Below are positions 4,134 to 25,069 of a stretch of DNA of 44,729 bases, one piece after another. The DNA lies in assembly GCA_937951345.1 (NCBI GenBank), contig CALFCF010000089.1, positions 1 through 44,729 of the forward strand, written 5' to 3'. A program made the position numbers and the translations under genes. Source of the stretch: an uncultured Granulosicoccaceae bacterium. GTDB lineage: Bacteria; Pseudomonadota; Gammaproteobacteria; Granulosicoccales; Granulosicoccaceae. The notes under the pieces are model-generated. The model saw nothing but the letters and a program-made list of their open reading frames with translations, ran no database searches and was not told the DNA's origin. Numbering within the stretch: position 1 is the first letter of the stretch; each line of letters opens with the position of its first letter.

Positions 4134-7100
4134 TTACCCGGCTTTAGGTAGTCTATTGCTGGTTGTAGAGTTACCCAATTCCTGCAACATTTGATGTGCC
4201 TGGTCTGTCGAAACGGGTTTTGAAAACAGATAGCCCTGTACAACCGGGCACTTCCAGTGTCTTAACATTTCCAGTTGTTGTGTATTCTCGACGCCCTCCG
4301 CCACAACAGAGTACCCCAATCGAGTCCCCATGATGATCATGGATTTCGTGATCTCTGATGCCCTGTCGTTTTTACCAATATTTTTGATAAAAGAGCGATC
4401 AATCTTCATAGTACCTACCGGGAAGTTCGACAGGTAGCGTAAAGACGTCTGACCAGTACCGAAATCATCAATAGAGAAGCTGACGCCTTTGTTCTCCAAT
4501 GTCTCGATCGACTGAAGTGCTTTCTCGTGACTATCTATTAAAGCTTCTTCGGTTATTTCCAACTCGAGCCTGTCAGGCGGGCAGTTATTCTTCTCTAGAG
4601 CGCCGATTACACTTGATATAAATTTCTCGCTTTGTAGATGAGAGGGGGATATGTTTACACACAGCTTGGGCGCCAGGTCATTTTCAATTTGCCAGTTGGC
4701 CGCAAATTTACAAGCATTGTCCAAAACGAAATCACCGAGAATACCCATTAATTTGTGTTTCTCAATTATTCCGATAAATTCGTTAGGTGCGAGTTCGCCC
4801 TTGGTCGGGTGATTCCAGCGAACTAACGCTTCGAATGAAACCAGCTCCTCCGTTTCAGTATCCACCAGGGGTTGATACAGTAAATACAATTCATGCTCTG
4901 CTATGGCACGTTTTAATTCAGTTTCGAGTTTGAAACGATGATCCATCTCATTGTCTAACGCCTTGTCGAACCAGACAGTCCGTGATTTTCCCTGGAACTT
5001 TGCGGAGTACATAGCAAGGTCTGAACGCCGCAAAAGATCATGCGAACTGGTCGCGTCGTCTGGAAACACGGCTACGCCAACGCTAGCAGCTATCTTGACT
5101 TCACTCACTGATAGCGCGAATGGTTTTCGTAGACTATCCAGTATGTTGCCTGCAATTGCCTGTACATCAGTTTTAAAATTCTCACCCTGCAGGTTTTGGA
5201 TGGTCAGAACGAATTCGTCACCACCTGTTCTATAGAGTTGGGAAGATTCTGACAGGAAATTTGATATCCGTTGTGCCACGGTTATCAGTAAATCGTCGCC
5301 AGCGTTATGCCCGTAGGAGTCGTTGACCGCCTTAAAGCCATCCAGATCCAGAGTTATCAAAGCCAGACGGGAAATTGCACTTTTTGCTTCATCAAGTGAA
5401 GTTTCCAGATCAGATGTGAGTGCGCGCCGGTTAAGTAACCCGGTAAGCTCATCATGCATTGACAGGTACACGGCTTTTTCTTCCGCGTTTTTTTTATCGG
5501 TTACGTCTGCCAGTGTTCCTCGGTAGCCAAGGAAATTCCCTTCACTGTCAATATTGGGAGCGCCCCTTATTTCAACAAGAATTGAGATACCATCTGCTGG
5601 TTCAAATGAAGCGTTCGAGCTGAAGAATGGCTGTTTGTTATCGATCAGTTTTTGCACTACAGCCTTATCATTCTTCTTCAGACGAATAACATCCATGAAA
5701 TGCTTATTTTTTACGTTTGCAAATGCATCATCAAGATCCTTGTTCCCGGAGAAATTAAACGAGCCGAGGCGCATGTCTGCTGTTGTTTCCCATAGAAAAT
5801 CTGATGCGGTATAGGCGAATTGCTGGAATTTTTTCTCGGAAGCTTCAAGGGTGGCTCTGGCACTCTCGTGACGGTCGATTAGACGATTTACGGTTTCCGC
5901 GAGATCGGCATGCTCGTCAGAATCATCCAGTGCCAAGTGCATGTTACTACTGTCTGTAGCGTCTATTCGTTCGTTCAACGCTCTTTTAAGTCGATCTGTG
6001 CCTATAGATTCACCGTGTTCAGAATAGTTGAGTCCGATGCGTTCGTCGTCCGCGCTTACACGCAAAGGCATGAAATAAGATAGACCTTTGAGCAGTGCAT
6101 ACATTGTACTTGTTACCAACAATAGAATTACGCCAACCCCAGCCAGCTGAATACCTAGCTGCGAAAAGCGGGAACCATTGACTAACTGATCAACCGGTGC
6201 AACAAACGCAAAGATTAGTGCACCGAAAATACCTGCTATGCCATGCGTTGCAACAACATCCACCGGATCATCGAATTTAAATTTGTCCAGCATTGTCTGT
6301 GCTGCCCAGGTAGCTAAAGCACCACCCAAGAACCCGACTAGCATGCTCTCATAGGCATGCATTACGTGTATGGCAGCAGTTGATGTAACAAGTCCGGCAA
6401 GCAATCCATTAATAATGCGATAGGGGTTGAATACCCCCTTGTCCAGCCACACGCCAATTATTGATCCGCCCAGGGCACCAAATGCGGCACATGAAAAGGT
6501 GTTGACAATGATTTCTGAAAATTGCGGAGATGATACTGATACAGTGCCAGCGTTAAACCCTATCCAACCGAATGTCAGCAGCAACGCGCCCTGCAATGAC
6601 ATAATACTGCTATGGCTTGCCATGGTTCTTGGCGTACCATCATCATGGAATCTATCGAGTCGTGGTCCAATCATAAGTATGGCAACAAATGCAGCACCAC
6701 CACCTATCAGGTGTACTACAGTTGCACCGGCGAAATCTACATAACCGATATCTGACAGCCAGGTAAACGGAATCTCGGCAAAGGTGTCCCCCCAAACCAG
6801 TCGTCCGGATATGGGAAAAAGGAATCCACCAATAAATAATGCCATAACCAGATAGGGAATAAACTTCATGCGTTCTGCGATACCGCCGGAGACGATAGAA
6901 GCTGCGGTGGCGCAAAACCCTAACTGAAACAGAAATTGCAGCGGTGACGGATCGTCAGTCCCACTGACGGGCATACTGATGCCATACATGATCAAGAAGC
7001 CAAACAGGAAATAGCCTACCCAGGCTACCATTAAGTCAGAGACGTTTTTCTGTGCAACGTTTACAGAATTTTTTGATCTTACTCTACCGCCTTCCAGCAA

Positions 7101-7178
7101 TAAAAATCCTGCTTGCATTAGCAATACTAGAAACGATGCGGTGAGTAACCAGAGACTATCGACTTGAGAGACTGACAA
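4134..7178 (-). CDS. Ammonium transporter (Amt) fused to PAS-GGDEF-EAL, candidate ammonium-responsive c-di-GMP enzyme
   Basis: 1014 residues. Residues 1-370 form an Amt/Mep domain with about 11 membrane helices. They include FGWIGFNAGT (203-212), DFAGATVVH with H156 and VVATHGIAG with H312, the twin histidines of the pore. A charged linker with coiled-coil character (about 380-450) leads to a PAS domain (450-562), a GGDEF domain with intact GGDEF at 652-656, and an EAL domain with FEALVRW (782-788) and SIDDFGTG (902-909). Both catalytic signatures look intact. The RxxD inhibitory site before GGDEF is absent. From domain knowledge it could make and/or hydrolyse c-di-GMP in response to ammonium; which activity dominates cannot be read. 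No PII gene is adjacent. The ATG start gives a normal Amt N-terminus. Confidence 0.92.
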   Translation of the reverse strand: MSVSQVDSLWLLTASFLVLLMQAGFLLLEGGRVRSKNSVNVAQKNVSDLMVAWVGYFLFGFLIMYGISMPVSGTDDPSPLQFLFQLGFCATAASIVSGGIAERMKFIPYLVMALFIGGFLFPISGRLVWGDTFAEIPFTWLSDIGYVDFAGATVVHLIGGGAAFVAILMIGPRLDRFHDDGTPRTMASHSSIMSLQGALLLTFGWIGFNAGTVSVSSPQFSEIIVNTFSCAAFGALGGSIIGVWLDKGVFNPYRIINGLLAGLVTSTAAIHVMHAYESMLVGFLGGALATWAAQTMLDKFKFDDPVDVVATHGIAGIFGALIFAFVAPVDQLVNGSRFSQLGIQLAGVGVILLLVTSTMYALLKGLSYFMPLRVSADDERIGLNYSEHGESIGTDRLKRALNERIDATDSSNMHLALDDSDEHADLAETVNRLIDRHESARATLEASEKKFQQFAYTASDFLWETTADMRLGSFNFSGNKDLDDAFANVKNKHFMDVIRLKKNDKAVVQKLIDNKQPFFSSNASFEPADGISILVEIRGAPNIDSEGNFLGYRGTLADVTDKKNAEEKAVYLSMHDELTGLLNRRALTSDLETSLDEAKSAISRLALITLDLDGFKAVNDSYGHNAGDDLLITVAQRISNFLSESSQLYRTGGDEFVLTIQNLQGENFKTDVQAIAGNILDSLRKPFALSVSEVKIAASVGVAVFPDDATSSHDLLRRSDLAMYSAKFQGKSRTVWFDKALDNEMDHRFKLETELKRAIAEHELYLLYQPLVDTETEELVSFEALVRWNHPTKGELAPNEFIGIIEKHKLMGILGDFVLDNACKFAANWQIENDLAPKLCVNISPSHLQSEKFISSVIGALEKNNCPPDRLELEITEEALIDSHEKALQSIETLENKGVSFSIDDFGTGQTSLRYLSNFPVGTMKIDRSFIKNIGKNDRASEITKSMIIMGTRLGYSVVAEGVENTQQLEMLRHWKCPVVQGYLFSKPVSTDQAHQMLQELGNSTTSNRLPKAG

Positions 7179-7423
7179 TGTTGTGCCACTTTTATATCTT
7201 TAGTGTGCAGATTAATCGGCATCCGAAAGTTTTCCTTCATTGAAAAGCCAGATAGATTTACTCGATGCAATATTGCTCTATAGAAGTGTTAGCAGGGTAA
7301 TAACTGTGATGCATCATTGTGCGTAAGAATGTCAGGTTCGTTCTGTTGTCTTCACAATTTTATCTATTTGCAAACTGATGTTTTTGCAAAAATTGTGGTC
7401 ACAAAACTCTGGCAGTCGCATAA

Positions 7424-7666
7424 CGGGATAGCGGCGGTCACTATGTTGCAGATTCTGTCGGTGAGGTGACGCTGATGGATCTGATCGAATATGCGCGTCA
7501 GAATCCTGTTATCCATGCTATGGATTCGTGCGCTTATCCGGGCTCCGAACTATGAGACCAGGGTCTTGCGAATCGCCAGGATCTGCTGTCCTATCAACTG
7601 GCATCCCGGCACTTTATGGCCGGGGTACCCTTGCAGTGGTATCGGGCAGCCGATCGGTACGTGTGA
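7424..7666 (+). pseudogene. Possible short coding remnant with one internal TGA
   Basis: Within the 560-bp gap between 7179 and 7740, one frame reads as plausible protein on both sides of a single in-frame TGA at 7553-7555. The first part includes MDLIEYARQNPVIHAMDS, with ATG at 7475 and a GAGGTG sequence just upstream. The second part includes ASRHFMAGVPLQWYRAADRY before a TGA at 7664. The family was not recognised. It could be a decayed gene, a 26-residue peptide followed by chance sequence, or chance throughout. The remainder of the gap (7179-7423) shows only AT-rich sequence without a clear motif. Confidence 0.25.
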
Positions 7667-7679
7667 AGTTAAAGCAGTA

Positions 7680-7708
7680 CCTGCGTAAATCGAAATAATT
7701 TACGCAGG
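7680..7708 (-). terminator. Perfect 11-bp hairpin downstream of the FKBP-like lipoprotein gene
   Basis: CCTGCGTAAAT and ATTTACGCAGG pair perfectly around a 7-base loop. It lies 32 bp past the stop codon of the minus-strand gene, so it probably ends that transcript. The following T content is modest, so intrinsic termination is plausible but not certain. Confidence 0.5.
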
Positions 7709-7740
7709 CCTGATTTATGCGGTCTGTGCTTTGGTTGCGA

Positions 7741-8286
7741 TTAAATCAATTCCACAACCACCACGTATGCATCCGCATTGTCGAGGTAGCTCGGCAGATC
7801 AGTCATACCTGCTTCATAAACTAACTGCAGCTGATCACCAACATTTCTCCCTAAAAGTGACTTCGAGAGAAAATCCGGCACTCCCTCTGCTACTCCTGCC
7901 TGTACTGTTACGGGTTCATCGAAGGAGTCTGTAGTCTCCACCAATTCGCCGCTTGACCAGCTGTACATAGAGTAACGAAGAACAACGGGGTCGCCAAAGC
8001 CAATCGGGCTTCCGGTGCCAGTGGCAAGGGTCCTTCTGGCAGAGAATGTTGGCAGCGAGCCTTGTGGCGCCTCAACATTGATGCTGCCATTTGCATTTGT
8101 TACAGGAGGAAATTCAAAGTCGTTACCAGTGAGGTCCAACGGCTGTATGGGTGCTTCCTGGTCCGTCTGGTCACCATCGGTTACCGACGAATCTGGAGAA
8201 CCACCACTATCACCGCATGCTGCTAGTGCCAGGAAAGCACTGGCTACAACCAGAGTTGTGTAGGTTTTTGCTTGATTTAGTCGCAT
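7741..8286 (-). CDS. Lipoprotein with FKBP-like C-terminal domain
   Basis: 181 residues from the ATG at 8286, which has GAGGC about 10 bases upstream; an in-frame TTG at 8301 is less likely. The N-terminus is a lipoprotein signal ending FLALAACGDS, so Cys is the predicted lipidated residue. A Ser/Asp/Gln-rich linker follows. The last ~95 residues (GDPVVLRYSMYSWSSGELVETT...VPDFLSKSLLGRNVGDQLQLVY...DAYVVVVELI) have the layout of an FKBP peptidyl-prolyl isomerase. Several aromatic active-site residues of true FKBPs are not obvious, so the isomerase activity is uncertain. It lies 75 bp downstream of the SdrD-like gene on the same strand, so both may share a transcript and act in the envelope. Confidence 0.75.
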   Translation of the reverse strand: MRLNQAKTYTTLVVASAFLALAACGDSGGSPDSSVTDGDQTDQEAPIQPLDLTGNDFEFPPVTNANGSINVEAPQGSLPTFSARRTLATGTGSPIGFGDPVVLRYSMYSWSSGELVETTDSFDEPVTVQAGVAEGVPDFLSKSLLGRNVGDQLQLVYEAGMTDLPSYLDNADAYVVVVELI

Positions 8287-16664: not shown

Positions 16665-17834
16665 GTGCCAGTAAAATTGCTCACAATTAGTATCGCCACG
16701 CTGTTAGCTATTCTAGCGACCTGCTGCTATTTTATGTTTCCCGGTTGGCCTACGCTGGTCATGCTGGTACTGCATATTTCAGCCACCTGCCTCTTTCTGT
16801 CATACCTAAGCTTAAAAAATAAGAGTTTTACTTCGTCCAATACGTTACCAGATGAGAACGATCATCACGAATACCGGTTGTTGCTCGAGAGTATTCATGA
16901 ATACCCTATGCCGTTCGCCATCTACGATGAAAACGATCGTCTGCGCATATGGAACAAGCATTATGAGAATATCTATGCGCGTGTTTTTAGAAAATTCGAA
17001 AACACAAAAGATGCGAAAGGGTTGACTTACGCTGAGGTCTTGCGAGGAAACTTGACAGACGAGTCTGTCGATCCAAATATGGATTACATTATTGAACAGC
17101 GTGTACGGGCGCAACGTTCAGGTGAACAAACACTAAGGGATCAGCAATACCCCGAGTATGGATGGTTTCGAGTCACAAAGTATGTCACGCCATCCGGAGG
17201 GGTTGCTGGTATCGCGATCGATATCAATGAACTCAAAAATCGTGAGAATGAACTTGTACGTGAAATTGAGCATCGTAAGCAACTTGAAATCGAAATTCTT
17301 AAAGTGGCTAATACCGATGGGCTGACCGGTCTTGCAAATAGAAGGCACTTTATGGAGCGTAGCCGTGAAGAGTTTGATAAGTCTGAGAGTTCAAATGCCG
17401 TATTTTCATTGCTAATGATTGACGTTGATCATTTTAAGTCTATCAATGACACGAAAGGACATGCGGGTGGCGACCAAGTACTGACAATGATTGCGGGTGC
17501 CATTAGTGCAGAATGCCGTCAGATTGAGTCACTGGTAGGACGAGTTGGTGGAGAAGAGTTTACCGTGTTGTTACCCAATACTGGCAGTGACGAGGCTCAA
17601 AGGCTGGGTGAAACTATTCGCCTATCTGTAGAAAAGCTGAATTTTGTTATAGATGATGTATCTTTCGGTGCAACAGTGAGTCTTGGTGTCGCTTCAACAC
17701 TGAGTAGTGGTGACCTCAGCTTATCAAACTTATTGAAAGATGCTGACCAAGCACTCTATGAATCTAAACGCAACGGACGAAATAGAGTGAGCGTTTCTTC
17801 AGCTGGTAGGCTGCCAGACAGAAAAGCTGGTTAA
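16665..17834 (+). CDS. Membrane-anchored PAS-GGDEF diguanylate cyclase
   Basis: 389 residues. Two hydrophobic helices (about 5-25 and 30-50) form a membrane anchor. A PAS domain of the PAS-7 type (about 72-190, MPFAIYDENDRLRIWNKHYENIY) and a short coiled linker follow. The GGDEF domain (215-385) carries the variant but functional signature RVGGEEF at 293-299. The RxxD product-inhibition site is absent. It should make c-di-GMP from GTP in response to a ligand at the PAS domain; the signal is unknown. The first plausible start is GTG 16665, without a clear Shine-Dalgarno sequence, so the N-terminus is uncertain. It is a single gene with no close partners. Confidence 0.88.
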   Translation: MPVKLLTISIATLLAILATCCYFMFPGWPTLVMLVLHISATCLFLSYLSLKNKSFTSSNTLPDENDHHEYRLLLESIHEYPMPFAIYDENDRLRIWNKHYENIYARVFRKFENTKDAKGLTYAEVLRGNLTDESVDPNMDYIIEQRVRAQRSGEQTLRDQQYPEYGWFRVTKYVTPSGGVAGIAIDINELKNRENELVREIEHRKQLEIEILKVANTDGLTGLANRRHFMERSREEFDKSESSNAVFSLLMIDVDHFKSINDTKGHAGGDQVLTMIAGAISAECRQIESLVGRVGGEEFTVLLPNTGSDEAQRLGETIRLSVEKLNFVIDDVSFGATVSLGVASTLSSGDLSLSNLLKDADQALYESKRNGRNRVSVSSAGRLPDRKAG

Positions 17835-18242: not shown

Positions 18243-19076
18243 ATGGTTAGATTTTTACACTTGGGGACTCAGAGATTTTTATTGCAACCCCGGCTTATCA
18301 AATCTGATAGTCAAAGAGCAGGGGTGACGAATTTGTTTGCTGCAATCTATTCGTCTTTTCTTGTTCTCAGTTTATTTCACCCTACTACCGCTCTCGCAAA
18401 CGATCAGGACCAGGACCTTGAGATTGCGTTGACCTTAGCTGATATTATGCGGAATGCTCGTCTGGAAATCGCCAGTCAGCAACCCTTGATCAATGATCCA
18501 ACCTTAGGAGACAAAGGACTCGATGGGGAAGTTATTCTCGCCAATGTCATTAAACGACTGGAAGATGGTGGATTAAACACGCAGGACTTAACGAGTTCTA
18601 CCTTGCCCGGTAACCGATTGTTCAAAGAACAGTTGGCATCTATTGTCGAGATTGCTGACGAAAATCAGGAGTTGATCAATCGCAAAGGATTGGGTTTTAA
18701 AGGGTTTGTCCCAGCGGTATTTACTCAGTTAGTGAATGAGCGTTTTGGTGAAAAAGTTCGCGGTGATGCAACTATAAAAGTTACTGCACCGTTACATCTT
18801 GTTCGTAACAGAAAAGCGCGCCCGGATGGTTGGGAACAAGAGGTTATCGAATCCAGGTTCAGTACTCCAGAGTGGGAAAAAGGCCGCTTATTCTCTGAAG
18901 TCTCCGAGGCAAATGGAAGTGAAGTGTTTCGTGTGATGGTCCCCGAGTATTACAAAGATGCCTGTTTAGCCTGTCATGGATCACCCAAAGGTGAGCTCGA
19001 TATAACCGGCTATCCGAAAGAAGGCGGTGAATTGGGTGAATTGGGTGGTGCAATTAGTATTCTGCTTTCCCGCTGA
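18243..19076 (+). CDS. Periplasmic Tll0287-like (DUF3365) haem-c sensor protein
   Basis: 277 residues. A hydrophobic segment (about 28-50) ending HPTTALA-ND looks like a signal peptide, although the N-region is long. The mature part matches the Tll0287-like/DUF3365 sensor domain, a PAS-like haem-binding fold. Shared features are KGLGFKGFVPAVFTQLV in the middle and YYKDACLACHGSPKG with the haem-c motif C241-x-x-C244-H245 near the end. GGAG lies about 10 bases before the ATG. The stop overlaps the start of the hybrid kinase (TGATG), so the two are translationally coupled. Most DUF3365 domains are fused to a kinase. Here the sensor is a separate polypeptide, presumably reporting a redox or gas signal to its coupled kinase. 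Confidence 0.85.
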   Translation: MVRFLHLGTQRFLLQPRLIKSDSQRAGVTNLFAAIYSSFLVLSLFHPTTALANDQDQDLEIALTLADIMRNARLEIASQQPLINDPTLGDKGLDGEVILANVIKRLEDGGLNTQDLTSSTLPGNRLFKEQLASIVEIADENQELINRKGLGFKGFVPAVFTQLVNERFGEKVRGDATIKVTAPLHLVRNRKARPDGWEQEVIESRFSTPEWEKGRLFSEVSEANGSEVFRVMVPEYYKDACLACHGSPKGELDITGYPKEGGELGELGGAISILLSR

Positions 19077-21892
19077 TGAAAAACCTTTCCATAGTTTCGC
19101 GCCTTGTGCTGCTTTGCACATTGCTTGTTACAGCGCTAATTGTTTCTAACCTTTATTTAAACAGAACTGTAGCAAGAGATACCGCATTACTGGTTGAAGA
19201 TGCCCATCAGATTACGGTGATGACGAATGCTAATTCAGCCAGTAGAGCGTTTGGTGACTTGAAGTACTGGCTTACAGATCTGGCTGTAAGTCTGCTTCTA
19301 CGCTCCGAAATGGAGGCAGAAAATTCCCGCAAAGAGCTGATGCAGACCCTTTCTGTATTGCGGGATGTTGATTCGAACCTGATAAGTCAAATTGAATCGG
19401 AAGTTGGCGAAATGTATTCAAAGTCGTTGCTGGCTGTCGATGCTTACACCGACGAACAGCGCGTATTGGGTAATACCCTGATGGCTGAGGCACGTGTCAA
19501 TATTGGAAAGATCGACGATATGCTCGCTGGCTTTGTAAAGGATATCGAAACAAGCGCAGTGGAGCGTGCGCAATCAGCTGCAAAAGAATCGCGCCAAACG
19601 GTAGTAACTTCTCGTTGGGTCGTTGCGCTTGCTTCTATCTTTGGACTTTTTCTAACGGGATGGATTCTTCAATCGATAAGAAACCCGTTGTCGAAACTTG
19701 TCACTTCAATGACCAGTATTGCATCCGGTAACTTAGAGGCAGAGGTGCCAGACGCTGGCAATAATGAAATCGGTGCAATGGCAAATGCGTTATCCCATTT
19801 TCGTGACAACCTTCAACACCAGAAAATACTCCAGGCCGAACGCGACTCTGCTGCAAATGCACTAACAGAAACCAAGCAACAGTTGGATGCTGCGCTTGAG
19901 AGTATATCGGAAGGATTTTGCCTTTTCGATCGTGATGATCGATTGGTTTTATGTAATCGACGATATCGAGACGATTTGCATCCCGGTATGACAGAAAGTT
20001 TTAAGCCTGGCAGAACCTTCGAAGAATTAATGCGGAGCTCCGCTGAAAAAGGTCTTATCGATCTTGGTGACAAAAGTATCAATCAGTGGGTAGAGGATCG
20101 TGTGGCTTTACACAAAAATACCGGTAGGGCGCATATACAACGTCGTTCTAATGGCAGTTGGTTACGAATCGATGAAAGGAGCACACTCGATGGCGCTACT
20201 GTTTCTGTGTATACAGACATCACAGATTTAAAAAATGCAGAAGACGAGTTGCGTGAAGCCCGTGACATTGCTGAGCGAGCGACTGTTGCAAAAAGTCAGT
20301 TTTTAGCAACGATGAGCCACGAAATACGCACGCCAATGAACGGCATTATCGGCATGAGTGGGTTGTTAAAAAACACTGAGCTTGATACTGAGCAAAGAGA
20401 TTTTTGTGACACCATTGCCAATAGTGCTGAATCGTTACTGGTCGTTATAAACGACATACTTGATTTTTCCAAAATTGAAGCTGGAAAACTTGAACTTGAT
20501 CCTCGCCCGGAAGATTTGCGCGAAGTTATTGAAAGTGTTCTTGATCTGATTACACCGGCTGTTGACAAAAAGAAATTAAACCTCGCCTATCTGATAGAAC
20601 GCAATACACCTGAAGGCGTGATTGTTGATGCCACTAGATTACGTCAGATATTACTCAATTTTTTGAACAATGCGGTGAAATTTACAGAAAATGGTGAAGT
20701 CATATTGCGTGTAAATGTTGACGATGAGTCCGTTATAAAACCGGGCGACGCATCTGATAGTGCAACTGGTTTGGTAGCGCTTAAATTTTCTGTTTCTGAC
20801 ACAGGCATAGGGATTCCGGATAGTAAATTGGAAATGCTGTTTGAATCGTTTACTCAAGTCGATTCATCCACTACCAGACAATATGGTGGTACCGGGCTAG
20901 GGCTCGCGATATCGAAAAATCTTATTGAATTAATGGATGGCCGAGTCTGGGTGGATAGTGTTGTGGGAGAGGGTACTACCTTTCATTTCGTTATCTATGT
21001 GTCTGAAACTTCAATTTCACGTGGGGTAGAGCTCCATGAGAGTAAACCTGATCTTGAAGGAAAGCGTTTGTTGATCGTGGATGACAATCCAACCAACCGT
21101 AAAATCCTGTCACTTCAAGCCCAGGAATGGGCAATGCTGGCAGAACAAACCGATTCTCCAAAAGAATCATTGCAATGGATTAGTAACGGATCAAACTTTG
21201 ACGTGGCTATTCTTGATATGAGTATGCCTGAAATGGATGGTATAGAGCTCGCAACCAAAATCAGACAGCATAAAAGTCGTGAGCAACTGCCCTTGGTGCT
21301 CCTGAGCTCGTTAGCAACGATTGCCGATGTACCCAAGTCGGTAATTGATGGCATTGGTTTTCATGAAAAGTTGGCGAAGCCGATTAAGCCTTCTGCCTTG
21401 CTAGATATATTAATGGATATTTTTTCTAATAACGCTATCAGGTATCAAAAGCGAGTGTCAAAGGCAGATGTAAATATTGATCCTGGCATGGCTATCAAGT
21501 ACCCGTTATCAATATTGATAGTAGACGATAACAAAACTAATCAAAAACTGGCTTTGCTGGTATTGAAGCGATTGGGGTATACCGCAAATGTTGCTGATAA
21601 CGGGCAACAAGCATTAGAAATGCAAACCGAGAATGCCTATGATGCAGTCCTGATGGATATAGAAATGCCGGTGATGGACGGGGTTGATGCTACTCGAAAG
21701 ATTCGACAGTTAAGTGGTGATCATTCAAGTGCTTATGTCATAGCGATGACAGCCAATGCGATGGAGGGCGATCGTGAGCGCTATCTTTCAGCTGGTCTTG
21801 ACGGATACATAAGCAAACCACTACGAATCAATGAACTGATTGCCGGTCTTGAAGCAGCATTCTCTGCCAAATCGGCCAAGGTTGTTGTCTGA
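19076..21892 (+). CDS. Hybrid sensor histidine kinase (TM-HAMP-PAS-HisKA-HATPase-REC-REC)
   Basis: 938 residues. Helix 8-28 and helix 180-200 enclose a periplasmic helical domain. HAMP spans about 200-255 and PAS about 265-385. HisKA contains MSHEIRTPMNG with H415. The ATPase has N-box FLNNAVKF, DTGIGIP and GGTGLGLAISK (N, G1, G2 boxes). The first receiver (about 664-785) has acceptor D714, and the second (about 811-930) has D861 and the usual K914. There is no HPt domain, so a separate HPt protein is required for a full relay; one lies 1.7 kb downstream. Start ATG overlaps the stop of the haem-sensor gene. The signal is probably relayed from that periplasmic protein. Confidence 0.93.
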   Translation: MKNLSIVSRLVLLCTLLVTALIVSNLYLNRTVARDTALLVEDAHQITVMTNANSASRAFGDLKYWLTDLAVSLLLRSEMEAENSRKELMQTLSVLRDVDSNLISQIESEVGEMYSKSLLAVDAYTDEQRVLGNTLMAEARVNIGKIDDMLAGFVKDIETSAVERAQSAAKESRQTVVTSRWVVALASIFGLFLTGWILQSIRNPLSKLVTSMTSIASGNLEAEVPDAGNNEIGAMANALSHFRDNLQHQKILQAERDSAANALTETKQQLDAALESISEGFCLFDRDDRLVLCNRRYRDDLHPGMTESFKPGRTFEELMRSSAEKGLIDLGDKSINQWVEDRVALHKNTGRAHIQRRSNGSWLRIDERSTLDGATVSVYTDITDLKNAEDELREARDIAERATVAKSQFLATMSHEIRTPMNGIIGMSGLLKNTELDTEQRDFCDTIANSAESLLVVINDILDFSKIEAGKLELDPRPEDLREVIESVLDLITPAVDKKKLNLAYLIERNTPEGVIVDATRLRQILLNFLNNAVKFTENGEVILRVNVDDESVIKPGDASDSATGLVALKFSVSDTGIGIPDSKLEMLFESFTQVDSSTTRQYGGTGLGLAISKNLIELMDGRVWVDSVVGEGTTFHFVIYVSETSISRGVELHESKPDLEGKRLLIVDDNPTNRKILSLQAQEWAMLAEQTDSPKESLQWISNGSNFDVAILDMSMPEMDGIELATKIRQHKSREQLPLVLLSSLATIADVPKSVIDGIGFHEKLAKPIKPSALLDILMDIFSNNAIRYQKRVSKADVNIDPGMAIKYPLSILIVDDNKTNQKLALLVLKRLGYTANVADNGQQALEMQTENAYDAVLMDIEMPVMDGVDATRKIRQLSGDHSSAYVIAMTANAMEGDRERYLSAGLDGYISKPLRINELIAGLEAAFSAKSAKVVV

Positions 21893-21998: not shown

Positions 21999-23537
21999 CT
22001 AGAGCTCATGATCCAATTTTGTAATTGGATCAATCTCCTCTGCTTCTTCTTTAGGTCCTACCAGTAACAACCCTACAACAAGCAGTCCCAGTGCGACCCA
22101 GGCTTGCCACGGTAATTTTTCACCCAGGAGTATCATGCTCCAGGCAATACCTGCAAAAGTAATGACGAAGGCGCTTTGACTTGCGAATACTGCTCCTGCG
22201 CTCCTTATTAAGTGAACGCGCATAGACACGCCTGTGGCAGAAACAATGCCATATAGCAAAACTACCAGTACAAGTACACCCGTACCATTTGTAAAATCAA
22301 CATTCAAGGCAACGAAGTCGCCGCGCATGGTAACTATTGGAATCAGAAAAAGCACAGATGCAACTGCAGACCAGCCGGTCGCTGTTACCATATCAATGCT
22401 ATCAGGTAGTTTGAGCGTAAGCAGGATAGCTCTCATGGCATAGCCCAGTGGTGCAAGCATGGCAAGAGCCGCCCAGTGCAATCCGCCGACTGCGCCGGTT
22501 CCCTGGGTTGTCATCACAACCATTAAAACGCCCGTCATGCCGATCAAGAATCCTATCAAGCGTTTGAATGTTGCCTGTTCAATTTTGATAATGGATGCAA
22601 ATGCGAAGACTATAAAGCCCTCACAAACCAGAATTAACGAGATGTAGGACGCCTGTAAATGCTGTGCGACCCAGAAGACAACAGCTTCGCCCATTACGGC
22701 AGTAAATATGGCCCACAACGCGAAAACCGGAATCAATCGGAAATTGATTACAGGTGAACGACCTCGTACAAGTACGTTGCCAAAACAGACGATTGCACAA
22801 ACAATATTTACCCATAAGACCATGCCGAGCGGGCTTGACGTTTCGAGTGCTGCGATACGGGTTAGCACTACGCCTAACCCGGTTACGACACCACAGGCTA
22901 GTAGTAGGCCCAGACTTTTTAGCGTACGAACTTGCTGTCGTAACCGCCGTTCGCGCTCGTAAACTTCACTGGCCATTCGCGTGAAAACGCGAGCAAGATT
23001 GCCTAGTGCATCTTCTCGCTTACACATAGCCTCAAGGCCCAACCGCTTTGGATCTATATGCCCTGATTCCAGTGTGGCAGCCGCATCTGCCAGCCTGTTA
23101 ACCTCACTAAGGTAGTCAAGCTCAAGATCACGTGCGCGCTTCTTTTCAAGAGATGCATTGATCCTGGCCTCAAGCAGAATCGGGTCGAAATTTTTTGGAA
23201 GAAAGTCCTGTGCGCCGAGGCTTATTGCTTTGACAACACTGTCCATTTCGCTGTCCAGAGCTGAAATTACAATGATCGGGATTTCGCTCAACACGGAATC
23301 TTTTTTTAGAAATTCCATCACACCGAAGCCATCTATTTCCGGCATCAGGATATCGAGCAGAATCAAGTCGAATTCTGATTCACGAAGCATCTTCAAGGCA
23401 GATTTGCCATCGGCCGCAGATGTCACGTCATAACCAAGAGTGGTTACGGCGAGGCTCATCTTTTTTCGTTGAGTCGCCTGATCGTCTACTATCAGAATGC
23501 GCTCTGATCTACTATTCGATGTGTTTCCTTCCAACAT
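21999..23537 (-). CDS. Receiver domain fused to an EamA/DMT transporter
   Basis: 512 residues. Residues 12-130 are a canonical receiver: ERILIVDDQ acidic pair, acceptor D62 in LILLDILMPEIDGFG, and DFLPKNF with the conserved Lys. Residues 140-205 are a charged helical linker resembling a HAMP/signalling helix (DALGNLARVFTRMASEVYERERRLRQ). Residues 207-495 comprise about ten membrane helices with two EamA repeats (LLACGVVTGLG..; second repeat ending ILLGEKLPWQAWVALGLLVVG), the drug/metabolite transporter fold. ATG 23537 has GGAG four bases upstream. It is 27 bp downstream of the HPt gene on the same strand, and converges on the hybrid kinase. The transported substrate is unknown. Direct control of transport by phosphorylation is inferred from the fusion. 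Confidence 0.9.
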   Translation of the reverse strand: MLEGNTSNSRSERILIVDDQATQRKKMSLAVTTLGYDVTSAADGKSALKMLRESEFDLILLDILMPEIDGFGVMEFLKKDSVLSEIPIIVISALDSEMDSVVKAISLGAQDFLPKNFDPILLEARINASLEKKRARDLELDYLSEVNRLADAAATLESGHIDPKRLGLEAMCKREDALGNLARVFTRMASEVYERERRLRQQVRTLKSLGLLLACGVVTGLGVVLTRIAALETSSPLGMVLWVNIVCAIVCFGNVLVRGRSPVINFRLIPVFALWAIFTAVMGEAVVFWVAQHLQASYISLILVCEGFIVFAFASIIKIEQATFKRLIGFLIGMTGVLMVVMTTQGTGAVGGLHWAALAMLAPLGYAMRAILLTLKLPDSIDMVTATGWSAVASVLFLIPIVTMRGDFVALNVDFTNGTGVLVLVVLLYGIVSATGVSMRVHLIRSAGAVFASQSAFVITFAGIAWSMILLGEKLPWQAWVALGLLVVGLLLVGPKEEAEEIDPITKLDHEL

Positions 23538-23564
23538 ATATCTCCGAATATCTTGGTAGTAAAT

Positions 23565-23912
23565 TTAGTGTTTCAGATAATCAGTGAGAGCTTGAGAAGC
23601 GAGTTTAAATTGAGTTGTGATTGTGTCGACCTGCTGCTCAGCCTGGCTAGGCCAATTGTTTTTGCAATTGTATTCAAGGGATGCCGCGAGCTCTGACAAC
23701 TTGGTAGCGCCAAAATCCTGCGCACTGGATTTCATGGAATGACTGGAGCGCCGAAGTACTTCTTGATCCTGACTTGAGAGCGACCGTCTCATGTCATCGA
23801 TCATTTCTTGTCCTTCGATCAAAAATGTGCTGATGAGTTCGTCCAGAGCTTCCTTTTCTCCGCCTATCAGTTCGAGCAGGTTTTCAAGACAATTTGTGTC
23901 TATAGTGTCCAA
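23565..23912 (-). CDS. Stand-alone HPt phosphotransfer protein
   Basis: 115 residues, a four-helix HPt domain with the phospho-accepting His58 in RRSSHSMKSSAQDFGA. This is the HxxKSS pattern that distinguishes active HPt proteins. The likely start is TTG 23912: GAGGC lies about 10 bases upstream, an in-frame TGA precedes it, and the next Met would delete the first helix. It is the first gene of a pair with the REC-EamA gene. It fits the missing step between the hybrid kinase (ending in receivers) and the receiver on the transporter. Confidence 0.88.
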   Translation of the reverse strand: MDTIDTNCLENLLELIGGEKEALDELISTFLIEGQEMIDDMRRSLSSQDQEVLRRSSHSMKSSAQDFGATKLSELAASLEYNCKNNWPSQAEQQVDTITTQFKLASQALTDYLKH

Positions 23913-24066: not shown

Positions 24067-24819
24067 TTAATCCTTATAAAGATAGTCAGCAATTCGTTGT
24101 AGCGCTTGATGTTTTTTCAGGTTTAACGTATGCCCACCATGTTCATAGATTTGGATGGTTGTGTTGGATTGGTCTTTATAAGCATTCAGTGCCGTTTCAT
24201 GCGGCAATTGTTCGTCATCTTCAGTCAACACCAGAAGTGTTGCAACGTCAGACAGCTGTGGTTTCTGCATCGCTTCATATTGGTCCAGCATATGTTGCGT
24301 AATTTTATATGTCACTCCTCTACGCTTATTCAGCTTGTTGTCGTTCAGGTGTCTAGCCAGCTGACGAGCAGGCTTTACCATTGGGTTTAACAAGACGATA
24401 TTTTCTGCCTGAATCTTGTTGCCGAAGTAGTTTGCCCAGTATCCACCCAGCGAGGTTCCAATCACCGTGACGCGACGATCCTGGAGATAGTGATGAGCGA
24501 CTTCACTCAGAAACGCCACAGTTTTTTCAGGATCCAATGGATCGTAGTTAAGCCCCAGTGTTGTGTGAGTATCAATAAATTTCTTCCTGATGCGTTTGAA
24601 CGTTCCGTTGGGAACTGCACTCAAAAAACCATGTAGAACAACAATGATGTCATCTTTATAAGTTGTCTTCTCGTTGTTGTCTGGTGAAAAAACACTGTAC
24701 GCAGCATAAGCTGAATCACCAAACGGTGGGTTAAGATTGAGAACATCCGCACGTAACTCTGCGGATATGAGCAAGGTGGTCAGTAATAGCCAACTGTTGA
24801 ATCGGAGCATGGGTAACAT
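24067..24819 (-). CDS. Exported alpha/beta hydrolase, YqiA/UPF0227-like
   Basis: About 250 residues. A signal peptide (LRFNSWLLLTTLLISAELRA) precedes the hydrolase fold: oxyanion segment VVLHGFLSAV, nucleophile elbow IGTSLGGYWANYFG, and C-terminal YEHGGHTLNL with the catalytic His. LVLTEDDEQLPHETA carries the probable acid. YqiA-like esterases are usually cytosolic, so export is unusual. Start choice matters: the longest frame begins at 24831 inside the adjoining MITE, ATG 24819 has AGG (from the MITE end) about 6 bases upstream, and ATG 24810 gives the tidiest signal peptide. It lies downstream of the acyltransferase on the same strand, separated by the MITE. Confidence 0.75.
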   Translation of the reverse strand: MLPMLRFNSWLLLTTLLISAELRADVLNLNPPFGDSAYAAYSVFSPDNNEKTTYKDDIIVVLHGFLSAVPNGTFKRIRKKFIDTHTTLGLNYDPLDPEKTVAFLSEVAHHYLQDRRVTVIGTSLGGYWANYFGNKIQAENIVLLNPMVKPARQLARHLNDNKLNKRRGVTYKITQHMLDQYEAMQKPQLSDVATLLVLTEDDEQLPHETALNAYKDQSNTTIQIYEHGGHTLNLKKHQALQRIADYLYKD

Positions 24820-24820
24820 A

Positions 24821-25069
24821 CTAGCCTGCATTATTCATGAAGGGTTAGCCACCAGAGTCTGGCTACCTAAGCAGGTCGCACGATTGAGCGACATTCGTAG
24901 AAATCTACGGGTTGAGCTCAATCGAGTGAGCGGCGACGGCAGACTGGCACTGGGGGTGAATAGAAAACAGTGTGCGAATACCCGCAGCGACGCTAATACT
25001 GCTTTTCTAACTGGAAATGGCTTAGTGTTCATTGTCACTGTTTTCGCCTTCGTGAATTGAGCAGGCTAG
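24821..25069. mobile_element. MITE-like element, copy 2 (249 bp)
   Basis: The same element as at 607-855, in the same orientation and of identical length. Counting by eye gives 24 mismatches and no gaps, about 90% identity. Its 23-bp ends match each other at 19 positions and are bounded by CTAG. It lies 2 bp beyond the acyltransferase stop codon and immediately before the hydrolase start, so it fills the gap between two codirectional genes. Its minus-strand end supplies the sequence just upstream of the hydrolase ATG. Confidence 0.78.

Follow-up and report, generated by a model that had tools for sequence, protein, structure and literature searches.

Analysis of the window, the whole stretch of 44,729 nucleotides from an uncultured Granulosicoccaceae bacterium, confirms that a receiver domain, a HAMP-like linker and a complete 10-helix EamA/DMT transporter form one real polypeptide. 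Nearby lie genes for an Hpt protein, a hybrid histidine kinase and a haem-Cache protein, all of which the preliminary description of the locus had missed. The features are the following:

18243..19076, plus strand: periplasmic Tll0287-like (haem-Cache) protein with the motif CLACH; its stop overlaps the kinase start
19076..21892, plus strand: hybrid histidine kinase, HAMP-PAS-HisKA-HATPase-REC-REC, convergent with the fusion gene
21999..23537, minus strand: REC-HAMP-like-EamA fusion gene, a single open reading frame of 512 aa with its ATG at 23537
22053..22922, minus strand: EamA/DMT transporter, residues 206-495, with two EamA repeats and 10 TM helices
22923..23159, minus strand: HAMP-like linker, residues 127-205, with the HAMP match at about residues 146-191
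23160..23498, minus strand: receiver domain, residues 14-126, assigned by Pfam, residue check and fold alignment; D62 codon at 23352-23354
23542..23545, minus strand: Shine-Dalgarno GGAG of the fusion gene, read from the sequence
23565..23912, minus strand: Hpt phosphotransfer protein, 115 aa, TTG start, HSMKSS motif, 27 nt upstream of the fusion gene on the same strand

Domain architecture of the fusion protein

The frame runs uninterrupted through 512 codons of the minus strand, and the GGAG 4 nt upstream of the ATG bears out the good ribosome-binding site of the preliminary description, which gave no strand. The plus-strand frame over 21999..23537 is interrupted by many stops. Pfam places Response_reg (PF00072) at residues 14-126 with an E value of 6e-26 and 91.2 bits against a curated cut-off of 30.2. 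All key residues of the receiver are there, as had been claimed, namely D18, D19, D62, S92 and K115, with D62 as the phospho-acceptor. The closest receiver among solved structures is that of PleD. An AlphaFold2 model of the fusion was built from a seven-row alignment of the window and related-locus sequences and shows a mean pLDDT of 78.3 and a pTM of 0.56. In VIA-align comparisons, residues 11-132 of the protein match RR468-type receivers (3gl9) with a Z score of 23.7 at 1.0 Å.

EamA (PF00892) matches the fusion at an E value of 6.8e-15 in two stretches, and each half passes the curated cut-off. Residues 199-499 align with the triose-phosphate/phosphate translocator (TPT; 5y78) with a Z score of 28.4 over 296 residues, with LicB at 26.6 and with SLC35B1 at 24.6, the matches spanning Z scores of 24.0-28.4 at a sequence identity to these three of just 12-15%. 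A sequence search of solved structures with the EamA part alone or with a single linker gave no matches. The count of lysine and arginine residues, 17 in the cytoplasmic loops of the EamA part against 2 in the periplasmic ones, suggests by the positive-inside rule that both termini of the fusion are cytoplasmic. Both repeats and the DMT fold agree with the earlier reading of a full DMT/EamA transporter in the same polypeptide as the receiver. A Pfam scan of the fusion protein finds no SLC5, STAC or kinase domains, which places it outside the CbrA-type transceptors. A second transporter-signalling fusion lies elsewhere in the window (4134-7178, minus strand) and joins an ammonium transporter (Amt) to GGDEF and EAL domains in 1014 aa.

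Relatives, ancestry and the linker

The Response_reg and EamA order, for which a domain-architecture search had been proposed, is found in 20 fused proteins, including that of the window and one truncated copy. Those aligned to the window fusion are 39-66% identical to it. None of the 19 complete receivers has lost the phospho-acceptor Asp, and 19 of 20 retain the Lys. The home genome is an incomplete draft of 115 contigs, a state in which an assembly or recombination artefact might arise, and the preliminary description had named such an error, together with absence of the architecture elsewhere, as what would overturn its reading. The same architecture occurs at two more loci of the home genome (paralogues with 51% and 45% identity), and further copies come from other MAGs and from three Mesorhizobium plasmid records (44% identity). 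These homologues in several genomes and lineages rule out the error and leave the artefact a negligible probability.

The fusion is unevenly distributed. Matches at an E value of 1e-80 or better occur in 6 of 48 genomes of the window's family, the named homologues including Granulosicoccaceae MAGs, and the fusion is present in 7 of 296 genomes of the family of a Sulfitobacter MAG, where the G666 copy is truncated. It is rare in wider samples, with the query genome alone among 369 of its class and G390 alone among 385 of another class. The plasmid pML2037 carries a VirD2-type relaxase gene within 10 kb of its fusion gene, which is annotated merely as "response regulator". Patchy spread and plasmid copies fit horizontal transfer, and the gene set is probably mobile. 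A tree built from 20 fused and 8 solo EamA domains groups all fused ones in one clade with a branch support of 100/100, which would fit a single fusion event; the solo domains in this tree were selected for similarity to the fused family.

Several loci show variants of the gene. In L061 (G666, ~6700-8200), the fusion gene is cut off at the receiver beside transposase-like frames, with the kinase gene still upstream, and in L068 (G396:C182, 5470-6210), it is broken within the transporter, with two in-frame stops in the genome-search match. Two divergent fusion genes adjoin in L067, L056 and L060; in the tree, the second type from L056 and L060 sits on a long branch of its own. An apparent extra N-terminal domain on the L056 and L060 fusions was rejected as an over-long open reading frame; the Hpt of L056 is separate and in another frame. 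L021-L023 encode a receiver and HAMP-like module without EamA, which the fusion profile matches over residues 10-205. Receivers 47-51% identical to that of the fusion are joined to adenylate/guanylate cyclase domains at L016:4255-5307 and L018:3369-4406, beside a similar hybrid kinase.

The linker alone matches Pfam HAMP (PF00672) with an E value of 0.13-0.16 and 13 bits, under the cut-off of 25 bits; strict membership was therefore rejected and the linker is named HAMP-like. HAMP matches at E<=1 occur in 11 of 15 scanned linkers (14 fused ones and one non-EamA cousin). The best listed fused linker reaches an E value of 3.9e-4, and the listed fused homologues top out at 21 bits. The cousin REC-HAMP module of L021 lies above the cut-off with an E value of 1.7e-8, and the linker profile retrieves the HAMP domain of NarQ at 0.007. 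Homology of the linker to HAMP is likely from these sequence comparisons, and an AS1-connector-AS2 pattern would be a tentative assignment at the low pLDDT of this part of the model. The signalling helix of the preliminary description keeps its HAMP-like character through the family-wide matches and NarQ but does not pass the Pfam cut-off in the window itself.

All 20 fused proteins are free of indels in the 79 residues of the linker, where their mean identity is 43%; indels in the EamA domain occur in 18 of 20. The AlphaFold2 model shows one unbroken helix from residue 177 to residue 232, running from the linker into TM1. The gapless linker at this identity and the continuous modelled helix argue that the two parts are not a chance join, as had been supposed from the window alone. 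The structure prediction formerly suggested as a check supplies this helix, but with a pLDDT of 49-71 over residues 151-210 it gives no ground for claiming that the linker docks on the transporter. Mechanical coupling of receiver to transporter through the linker is what we infer from this pattern. Gene fusions often join co-regulated genes, and the protein might accordingly be a constitutive transporter coexpressed with a signalling domain that has no allosteric link to it. This is very unlikely given a linker whose length and HAMP-like pattern are constant in 20 of 20 proteins despite 39-66% identity to the query among those aligned.

Between the window and L012, dN is 0.25 in the receiver, 0.27 in the linker and 0.27 in EamA, while NG86 dS is saturated in the receiver and EamA and otherwise 2.3. 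Similar dN across the domains at such dS indicates that the transporter part is also under purifying selection in this pair. This bears on the idea that EamA only tethers the receiver near the kinase, with protein interaction or localisation as the output. Some response regulators work through interaction alone, the transport function of the fusion is predicted from sequence and model, and EamA could be kept for membrane location instead of transport. A complete 10-TM DMT fold, two repeats above the cut-offs and a constrained EamA sequence nevertheless exceed the needs of an anchor, and the indel-free HAMP-like linker implies coupling, which makes a mere tether decidedly improbable.

Phosphorelay genes and sensors beside the fusion

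The kinase, Hpt and haem-Cache genes next to the fusion are the strongest functional evidence. The window kinase has TorS as its top NCBIfam match (2e-145, under the equivalog cut-off). A fusion gene occurs together with a hybrid kinase carrying two receivers and an Hpt at 13 loci: the window, L012, L065, L066, L067, L052, L056, L057, L058, L059, L060, L062 and L027. The H-box of the kinase is intact in all 13. The components of a complete His-Asp-His-Asp relay are encoded at the window and at 12 further loci. The order is kinase, Hpt, fusion in L027, L057, L058 and L059, and in these four the stop of the Hpt gene overlaps the start of the fusion gene. Three of the seven Hpt matches in the home genome are small stand-alone proteins, and two of these three adjoin fusion genes. 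Distance matrices correlate between kinase and fusion (r 0.77) and between Hpt and fusion (r 0.75), with a Mantel p of 2e-4 that still includes shared species ancestry. The fusion genes of L053, L054 and L055 are orphans with neither kinase nor Hpt adjoining, and the receiver of L053 has Glu in place of the Lys; these orphans count against a relay reading. Two other genes flank the set in the window, a PAS-GGDEF diguanylate cyclase (16665-17834, plus strand) right upstream of the haem-Cache gene and a UPF0227/YqiA-like alpha/beta hydrolase (24067-24831, minus strand) that shares the strand of the Hpt gene and lies upstream of it.

The gene preceding that of the kinase varies from locus to locus. 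It is Tll0287-like in five of them (the window, L012, L065, L066 and L067), and the window protein matches sCache_heme/Tll0287 (PF11845) with 61.4 bits against a cut-off of 24.1, its CXXCH haem motif being CLACH. L057 has SBP_bac_3 in this position and L052 a weak match to it; the upstream genes of L060 and L061 look SBP_bac_3-like by eye, without a Pfam match. DctP is found upstream of the kinase in L058, the neighbour in L059 has the same length, and L027 has a GAF-rich kinase and no periplasmic sensor gene. The best explanation of this variation next to a constant fusion seems to be a set of swappable inputs. Members of the Tll0287 family are c-haem Cache domains, of which those fused to signalling domains bind NO and stand-alone ones appear redox-related (PMC12889525). 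The window protein stands alone but its gene overlaps the kinase gene, so that NO or redox sensing are both possible.

The signal might also run in the reverse direction, with substrate binding or transport by EamA altering receiver phosphorylation or dephosphorylation and the fusion sensing for the relay or draining phosphate from it. A receiver can hand phosphate back to its Hpt partner, and two fusion genes occur together at some loci. CbrA and similar transporter-kinase fusions are described as transceptors, in which motion during transport is presumed to be passed on to the kinase (PMC13022988). Against this, most loci already have a dedicated periplasmic sensor adjoining the kinase. Nor did a separate DNA-binding response regulator turn up repeatedly next to the fusion clusters, so the fusion remains the constant candidate output, and the transceptor reading is unlikely.

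Proposed mechanism and comparison with known systems

We regard as probable, though well short of certain, a multistep phosphorelay in which inputs can be swapped and the final response regulator is itself a transporter under post-translational gating. The periplasmic sensor, in the window the haem-Cache/Tll0287 protein, would modulate the TorS-like hybrid kinase. The kinase His would then donate its phosphate to a kinase receiver, from which it would travel to the stand-alone Hpt, at its His, and on to D62 of the fusion receiver. Phosphorylation of D62 would alter receiver packing within a presumed dimer, and the HAMP-like linker would transmit the change as a helix movement straight into TM1. 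The shift of TM1 would open or close the EamA transporter, either sign being conceivable, and would give the cell a rapid means of controlling efflux or uptake after translation. The cell may in this way switch the transporter directly and not through gene expression. The broader proposal, a class of response regulators with transport as the output in which a multistep relay with exchangeable periplasmic sensors directly gates a DMT transporter through a HAMP-like linker and bypasses transcription, is evenly poised.

The outputs familiar from response regulators are mainly DNA binding and enzymatic activity, and a transporter is the presumed output here. If this is true, a conserved gene set with a changing sensor would show direct two-component control of membrane transport, and it would offer a testable HAMP-like signal that runs opposite to the customary way, from the cytoplasm towards a membrane protein. 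Cultivable strains could serve for tests through the plasmid copies of Mesorhizobium. A literature search found no description of a receiver-EamA or receiver-transporter fusion, and an earlier description may still exist.

Known proteins resemble the fusion in parts. TPT, LicB and SLC35B1 match over their full-length fold but cover only residues 199-499 of the fusion. PleD (REC-GGDEF) and REC-adenylate cyclases have similar receivers, from which the fusion differs by its integral-membrane transporter output. The REC-HAMP protein at L021:1390-2448 matches the fusion profile over receiver and linker (10-205), with its HAMP above the Pfam cut-off, but lacks EamA and has another C-terminus.

The TorT-TorS system shares the TorS-like hybrid kinase and a phosphorelay through Hpt, and the kinase of L058, which adjoins a DctP-type binding protein, weakly matches the TorS sensor domain. 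The end point of the TorS relay is TorR, a DNA-binding regulator; the fusion system differs in its separate Hpt protein and in having a transporter as the end point. In the SLC5-STAC histidine kinases, CbrA and CrbS, transporter and two-component domains share one chain with a linker domain (PMC13022988, PMC9100948), and the fusion is similar in combining a transporter, two-component domains and a dedicated linker in one polypeptide. The transporter of CbrA and CrbS sits on the kinase, at the input, whereas that of the fusion sits on the terminal response regulator, the presumed output; the transporter superfamily is also a different one, and the fusion has a HAMP-like linker in place of a STAC linker. 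In their logic, the closest systems are TorT-TorS for the input and the CbrA-type transceptors for a transporter joined to two-component domains.
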